A stretch of DNA of 36,477 nucleotides from a virus. Both the position numbers and the translations under genes were made by a program. Below, piece by piece: positions 13,874 through 14,983 of the stretch (position 1 is the first letter of the stretch; the number at the start of each line of letters is the position of its first letter). The DNA is taken from IMG/VR virus record IMGVR_UViG_3300017727_002076, positions 1-36,477 of that record; one strand, written 5' to 3'. The notes under the pieces were generated by a model, which was not told the DNA's origin, did no database searches, and saw only the letters and a program-made list of their open reading frames with translations.

Positions 13874-14356
13874 ATGAAAAACGAGGGAAAGAAACTTTGG
13901 AAAAAGGTAAAGAAAATGGATCTAGGTAATCCCGCAATCACGGCTCTAGTAGGGCTTGTTATTTTTTATATCGGACTTAAAACATTCTCAGGTGGAATGA
14001 AGTCTATGGGTAATATGGAACATCTAACTTGGTTTCTTGGTAATCCTTTGTACATGTTCTTTGGTGGGATAGCGATGACATTATTGTGGCAGTCATCATC
14101 ATTATCTACTACTGCTATCATTGCATTAGTCGCATCAGGTGCCTTACCACTTCCTGCTGCCATTGCCTGTGTTCTTGGAGCAAACCTTGGTACAACAGGA
14201 ACCATTTGGTTAGCAGGATTATTCGTATCAGATGGTATGCCAAAAGGAGACACACTTAGGATTGCTATGGCACATACTGGTATGAACTTATTGATGGCAT
14301 TAATGCTATTGCCTTTCGTAGGACGCATTGCTCAACTTCTAGCACGTGTGACATAA
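13874..14356 (+). CDS. Na+/phosphate cotransporter-like protein, single repeat
   Basis: A protein of 160 residues. The repeat signature of the Na/Pi cotransporter family (PF02690) is clear: LLWQSSSLSTTAIIALVASGALPLPAAIACVLGANLGTT (residues 70-108), with QSSS (73-76) and GANLGTT (102-108), then AHTGMNLL (133-140). Four to five hydrophobic segments and a Lys-rich N-terminus are visible. Cellular NptA/YjbB transporters contain two inverted copies of this repeat in 300-550 residues, whereas here there is one. It could work as a dimer or modulate the host transporter. Phosphate is a classic limiting nutrient for marine phages, so a role in phosphate uptake is plausible but inferred. Confidence 0.78.
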   Translation: MKNEGKKLWKKVKKMDLGNPAITALVGLVIFYIGLKTFSGGMKSMGNMEHLTWFLGNPLYMFFGGIAMTLLWQSSSLSTTAIIALVASGALPLPAAIACVLGANLGTTGTIWLAGLFVSDGMPKGDTLRIAMAHTGMNLLMALMLLPFVGRIAQLLARVT

Positions 14357-14378: not shown

Positions 14379-14409
14379 AAAAGGGGGGTTGACTATACTC
14401 CCCTTTTTT
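14379..14409 (+). terminator. Intrinsic terminator with the tmRNA promoter inside it
   Basis: AAAAGGGG (14379-14386) pairs with CCCCTTTT (14400-14407) around a 13-base loop, followed by T residues. The TTGACT -35 box of the tmRNA promoter lies in the loop, repeating the design seen at 8548. Confidence 0.78.
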
Positions 14410-14417
14410 GATATAAG
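14389..14417 (+). promoter_or_regulatory. Sigma70-like promoter TTGACT-N17-TATAAG for the tmRNA
   Basis: TTGACT at 14389-14394, a 17-base spacer, TATAAG at 14412-14417; predicted start near 14424, just upstream of the tmRNA acceptor piece. Confidence 0.72.
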
Positions 14418-14486
14418 TATATCTGTAAACGTTGAAGCAACGTAGACACATACTGGACTTGGGGGCAGTACCCAACGCTTCCACCA

Positions 14487-14551
14487 TAAGCACACTATTG
14501 AGGCAGCCCACATAGCGTAAGAACCTTGTTAACATAAAGTGTGTTTATGAT
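14487..14551 (+). other. tmRNA intervening segment removed during maturation
   Basis: Sixty-five bases between the encoded CCA and the first G of the coding piece. Its ends pair: 14486-14495 with 14539-14548, 10 bp with one G-U, extending the acceptor stem. This brings both processing sites to the base of a hairpin, as expected for permuted tmRNA precursors processed by RNase P at the 5' end of the coding piece. Confidence 0.72.
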
Positions 14552-14634
14552 GGGGGCGAACTAGGATCGACAGGTGTGAAAGTGAAGTGGAGTTTACCGT
14601 GGTGACTGACGATATTAGGTCAACCAAACTAAAT

Positions 14635-14679
14635 GCAAACGATAACTTTGCACCATCTGGTTACGCACTAGCTGCATAA
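14635..14679 (+). other. tmRNA tag reading frame (ANDNFAPSGYALAA)
   Basis: The resume codon is GCA at 14635 and the stop TAA at 14677-14679, giving a 14-residue tag. The ANDN start and the ALAA end are the ClpXP-type degradation tag pattern of alphaproteobacteria. The upstream bases around the resume codon lie after a candidate PK1 stem (AGTTT/AAACT). Confidence 0.9.
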
Positions 14680-14746
14680 CACAGGGGGTTGGCTACTTAC
14701 CTAGCAACAGAAAAGTAGCAGATTAACAACTAAGGGAACGAAACAT

Positions 14747-14983
14747 ATGGAAATTCTAACAAAGGTAAAATCGTGGGCAAGCAATCTCGCTGATGTAGGT
14801 ATCAGCATTGCAGCTTTGATGATCGTAGTAGAAGTACTAGGTCTTGGAGCTATCCCATTTTTCCCTGAAACAAGTGTAGTCGCTAATGTAAGCGGTATGC
14901 TTGGCACTCTAGGCGCTGAAGGTCTAATGGGCTTGATCGCTATCTGGGTTCTATATGCTATCTGGAACAGATCACAAACTTAA
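14747..14983 (+). CDS. Small two-pass membrane protein, 78 aa
   Basis: Two hydrophobic segments (VGISIAALMIVVEVLGLGAIPFF and GLMGLIAIWVLYAIW) flank a Gly/Ser/Val linker, with a short charged N-terminus and a basic C-terminus. AAGGGA precedes the ATG. The topology would fit a holin or a small envelope protein; no family is recognised. It follows the tmRNA and probably shares its promoter, with the coding piece of the tmRNA cut from the same transcript. Confidence 0.75.
   Translation: MEILTKVKSWASNLADVGISIAALMIVVEVLGLGAIPFFPETSVVANVSGMLGTLGAEGLMGLIAIWVLYAIWNRSQT

Follow-up and report, generated by a model that had tools for sequence, protein, structure and literature searches.

The window analyzed here, the whole 36,477-base stretch of an IMG/VR virus record, is a fragment of a T4-like marine phage that encodes a UvsX-like recombinase, a DnaB-like helicase, ThyX, a MazG-like protein, a DNA methyltransferase and an endolysin. 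Its DnaB is nearest to those of Kyanoviridae-type phages, namely C48C1 (66.5%) and, at about 62%, the cyanophages and Melnitz. A complete circularly permuted (two-piece) tmRNA gene of the alphaproteobacterial type lies at positions 14425-14722 (Table 1). tmRNA releases ribosomes that have stalled and adds a tag to their incomplete protein.

Two Rfam models are matched over their full lengths in cmscan searches, namely RF01849 alpha_tmRNA (14385-14722, model positions 1-355 of 355, 110.5 bits, E=1.6e-29) and RF04321 tmRNA_permuted (14425-14679, model positions 1-213 of 213, 114.2 bits, E=8.8e-22), and ARAGORN independently predicted a permuted tmRNA (tmRNA*) with the identical tag ANDNFAPSGYALAA. 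The permuted two-piece organization and the alphaproteobacterial type proposed in the first-pass annotation are thus borne out: each feature that it named was found at its position, and the alpha_tmRNA scan that it suggested gives a strong match across both pieces. The folding-energy z-score (-1.59) is modest by itself, and the case for the gene is accordingly built on the covariance-model matches and the covariation seen in relatives. The acceptor stem comprises 7 pairs, including two G-U pairs, one of which is G3-U70, and the resume codon opens a short frame with a hydrophobic AA degron end (ANDNFAPSGYALAA followed by a stop).

Table 1. Features of the tmRNA locus (window coordinates)
Feature	Position	Strand	Basis or detail
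Upstream gene, Na+/Pi-cotransporter-like protein	13874-14356	+	Pfam PF02690, 1.9e-15
Possible terminator of upstream gene, AAAAGGGG (14379-14386) / CCCCTTTT (14400-14407)	14379-14407	+	sequence
sigma70-like promoter TTGACT-17-TATAAG, predicted start ~14424-14426	14389-14417	+	
Acceptor (3') piece	14425-14486	+	Rfam match, sequence reading
P2, 5' strand / 3' strand	14425-14430 / 14592-14597	+	GTAAAC/GTTTAC
T-arm, TTGGG-GGCAGTA-CCCAA	14459-14475	+	sequence; T-stem covariation
Acceptor stem, CGCUUCC / GGGGGCG	14476-14482 / 14552-14558	+	sequence; covariation
A73	14483	+	sequence
Encoded CCA	14484-14486	+	sequence
Intervening sequence, 65 nt, predicted to be removed	14487-14551	+	closing helix
Closing helix of intervening sequence, 10 bp	14487-14496 / 14538-14547	+	conserved in relatives
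5' part of coding piece, including conserved GGATCGAC block	14552-14634	+	Rfam, relatives
GGATCGACAGG	14564-14574	+	sequence
PK1 hairpin, then single-stranded lead to resume codon	14603-14607 / 14618-14622	+	5 bp
Tag frame ANDNFAPSGYALAA, resume codon GCA	14635-14676	+	ARAGORN; viral relatives
Stop codon TAA	14677-14679	+	
3' H-type pseudoknot	14688-14719	+	S1 14688-14691/14705-14708; S2 14692-14698/14713-14719
Downstream gene, 78-aa hydrophobic, probably membrane protein	14747-14983	+	often syntenic with tmRNA

Counted from the CCA end, the hexamers of the putative sigma70-like promoter stand at -98 and -75, coinciding with the hexamer peaks seen across 165 unique relatives (-97 to -99 and -74 to -76); this conservation of position supports the earlier proposal that the gene has its own promoter. 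A consensus scan of the plus strand for promoters and terminators found neither, the promoter having been missed because the scan demands a T at the last -10 position, and the possible terminator because its 13-nt loop exceeds what the scan allows. Within the loop of this possible terminator, which is retained in the related loci L035, L012 and L147, lies the promoter's -35 hexamer. The Na+/Pi-cotransporter-like gene, a possible phosphate-related auxiliary gene, lies directly upstream of the tmRNA in the window and is also found upstream in L035, L147, L205, L019 and L086; its identity in relatives is 83-100%. The 78-aa downstream protein had no match in Pfam or PHROG, and its gene is present in 21 related loci, with 59-100% identity where listed.

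Covariation was assessed in 77 non-redundant relatives with the window's form, in comparison with shuffled sequences. The acceptor stem (99.8% paired versus 90% shuffled), the T-stem (100% versus 73%), P2 (88% versus 54%) and, in the 3' pseudoknot, stem S2 (74% versus 48%) all covary, with two-sided changes in 5 of 6 pairs of P2 and in 7 of 7 pairs of S2. Stem S1 of the same pseudoknot is indistinguishable from shuffles (70% versus 67%), and the guessed PK1 stem gives a weak signal (53% versus 45%). In the acceptor piece, a local ACGUUG/CAACGU hairpin was considered and found unsupported, being paired in 56% of cases in both relatives and shuffles. The helix closing the intervening sequence, of 10 bp in the window, averages 9.3 bp against 3.7 bp in shuffles across 153 unique sequences. 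Given that relatedness inflates such shuffle tests, most weight is carried by a compensatory change in a near relative: L035, 91.6% identical over 2.5 kb, has P2 strands GTTAAC/GTTAAC in place of the GTAAAC/GTTTAC of the window. The gene, its anatomy, its covariation, a promoter at a constant position and wide conservation among viruses are established here. Two-piece tmRNAs of phages occur widely across viral metagenomes and are under selection as RNAs.

The window tmRNA is not new in kind, as two-piece tmRNAs of marine phages were reported in 2022, but it is a member of a large phage lineage. In that survey 53 of 133 unique phage tmRNAs were two-piece, 50 of these being marine or aquatic, and the methylophage Melnitz was described with a two-piece alpha-type tmRNA and a glutamine riboswitch in a non-alphaproteobacterial, methylophilalean host (PMC9004378); a tmRNA database holds 79 bacteriophage tmRNAs (PMC11915505). 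Melnitz (MZ577095-MZ577098) resembles the window in being a T4-like Kyanoviridae phage with a permuted alpha-type tmRNA, a hairpin before the tag (ANDNYVPVDYALAA) and promoter-like hexamers at a matching distance, but it has a longer intervening sequence and other neighbor genes, and the 79% DNA identity between the two extends over 47% of the query only. We confirmed that a glutamine riboswitch immediately follows the tmRNA in Melnitz (L002 15356-15404, 52.8 bits); the window has no match to it at the gathering threshold. Phage C48C1, the nearest by DnaB, lacks a permuted tmRNA, and a search for a publication on it found none. The alphaproteobacterial two-piece tmRNA of the Caulobacter type (RF01849) shares with the window the gene order, the T-loop GGCAGTA, the GGATCGAC block, the pseudoknot after the tag and the spacing before it, whereas the window version is carried by a phage and its tag was not found in the bacterial chromosomes searched. 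Permuted alpha-type tmRNAs are likewise present in Roseobacter, Ruegeria, Phaeobacter, Rhodobacter, Mesorhizobium and Sinorhizobium phages (DSS3P8, DSS3_MAL1, MD18, RcXuper, RcSimone-Hastad, Cp1R7A-A1 and Phosso), although their DNA similarity to the window is confined to the short acceptor/GGATCGAC block and their tags differ. Most of the tmRNAs in this set of phages are unannotated in the deposited records (for example L275-L280, from Mesorhizobium, Roseobacter, Rhodobacter, Phaeobacter and Sinorhizobium phages).

The view in the first-pass annotation that the lineage of the host can be told from the tag was not supported. The tag family ANDNFAP[ST]GYALAA occurs in at least 119 viral contigs and in a single contig among 84,980 species genomes; plasmids searched for host tags gave no match. 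The sole genome match (NHBR02000136.1, L004) was binned into a flavobacterial (Muricauda) MAG, and its genes include a clamp loader, a sliding clamp and a RegA-like gene of T4-like type. As a separate standard tmRNA is present on another contig of the same MAG, this contig is most likely a misbinned phage. Melnitz also argues against reading the host from the tmRNA, having a methylophilalean host and yet an alpha-type molecule (PMC9004378). Searching with a pattern placed in the acceptor/GGATCGAC block, independent of the tag, recovered at least 120 matches, and among the matches listed 109 tags were readable, 86 of them distinct. Among these listed tags 83 of 109 start with ANDN and 90 of 109 end in LAA, the latter count being biased by a parser that demanded a terminal A or S, so that the constant AA ending arises partly by construction. 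By these counts the frame, the start and the degron end are conserved and the middle of the tag is variable. The tags of phage two-piece tmRNAs do not, on this evidence, identify the host.

Taken together with established knowledge of trans-translation, the anatomy suggests how the gene most likely works. Transcription from the sigma70-like promoter would begin close to where the acceptor piece starts (~14425), and the precursor would fold such that the 10-bp helix closes the intervening sequence beside the acceptor stem. Host tRNA-processing enzymes would then excise this sequence to yield two RNAs, an acceptor piece with a CCA end and a coding piece, joined by the acceptor stem and P2. The product could be charged by the host AlaRS, as read from G3-U70 and A73, and be brought to stalled ribosomes by host SmpB and EF-Tu; no SmpB was detected with Pfam and PHROGs among the subset of ORFs scanned in this 36-kb fragment. 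Translation would resume at the GCA at 14635, appending ANDNFAPSGYALAA, and host proteases would act on the tagged protein. During infection the tmRNA would most likely supplement host trans-translation by rescuing ribosomes halted on mRNA that has been cut or degraded. The gene is real, and we consider it highly probable that it specifies a working phage-encoded two-piece tmRNA, whose expression and benefit to the phage we infer.

Other interpretations are less favored to varying degrees. Were the contig a bacterial fragment, the alpha type of the tmRNA would be that of the host's own gene, but the T4-like UvsX, DnaB, MazG and endolysin, the origin of the sequence in a virus record and the near-identical relatives on other viral contigs render this exceedingly improbable; these genes, along with ThyX, also sustain the original description of the tmRNA as phage-encoded. 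The tmRNA could instead be a passively captured host ssrA or a remnant of an attachment site, acquired through imprecise excision and devoid of a role. tmRNA genes often serve as integration sites, and a temperate-phage origin has been suggested for the Melnitz gene (PMC9004378). The completeness of the gene with its positioned promoter, the compensatory changes within the phage clade, the synteny that is stable in many phages, the selection evident across phages and the lack of an integrase among the window proteins scanned all speak against such a capture, which we regard as very unlikely.

A further proposal is that the tmRNA chiefly redirects tagging, with a phage-specific tag guiding nascent or host proteins to another protease or adaptor than the host tag would, for takeover or recycling of amino acids. 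Such recycling has been proposed for Melnitz (PMC9004378), and the absence of the tag from the bacterial chromosomes searched and the great diversity of the tag middles would fit. That diversity may however be drift, and the C-terminal LAA is a degron of the ordinary ClpXP type. Redirected tagging is a doubtful primary role, though less so than passive capture, and supplementation of host trans-translation is the reading that we prefer.

The structural element PK1 is usually thought standard in tmRNA. In the window it takes the form of a 5-bp hairpin that ends 12 nt before the resume codon and has a weak crossing stem, and it is called a pseudoknot by analogy with the Rfam model and because of its shared position. 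Alternative stems can be drawn in the PK1 region of relatives, with overall pairing barely above that of shuffles, and a generic hairpin search of this region gave a stem length of 4.87 against 4.64 in shuffled sequences. The distance between TCGAC and the resume codon separates the relatives into groups of 64-79 nt (68 in the window), 42-55 nt and 31-35 nt. In the long group the hairpin most often ends 11-12 nt before the resume codon. The short form (31-33 nt), which accounts for 9 of 109 members of the tag-independent sample among the matches listed, aligns with a 36-nt gap that spans PK1 and part of P2; P2 is nonetheless kept, fully paired and covarying, and in most cases its end lies 9-12 nt ahead of the resume codon. 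It is still matched by Rfam and was missed by ARAGORN in the loci inspected. The middle group (L130, L167, L175, L181, L203, L221, L227, L232 and L262) has a different P2 (for example GGTC/GACC) and, when read by eye, also looks to be PK1-less.

What is new here is that close relatives at the same locus lack PK1 and that the two forms have switched repeatedly on a phage gene tree. L147 has the terminator and promoter of the window and yet carries the short form, and L205, L019 and L086 carry it among the same neighbor genes as the window. Further PK1-less loci with a 31-33 nt spacing at the same locus include L239, L048 and others. On the ThyX tree the two forms require 7 changes, at least 3 of which are forced by starred branches, and the sisters L059 and L061 have opposite forms. 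Searches of isolate phages with short-form queries found no PK1-less tmRNA, and a PK1-like segment is kept in all isolate phages compared.

These observations raise the prospect, to which we assign about even weight, that uncultured marine T4-like phages harbor a tmRNA lineage that has repeatedly dispensed with PK1, with P2 taking its place 9-12 nt before the resume codon and both versions interchanging behind a common promoter at a single locus. Experiments in E. coli have put a hairpin or a single strand in the place of PK1, and tagging persisted (PMC3968760, PMC4236655). The PK1-less relatives are natural counterparts of these replacements, making the roles of PK1 and of the spacing directly testable. 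If this proposal is correct, these phages, whose tags have to date been encountered in viruses alone, would provide a naturally occurring minimal tmRNA and, with it, a natural test of the role of PK1.
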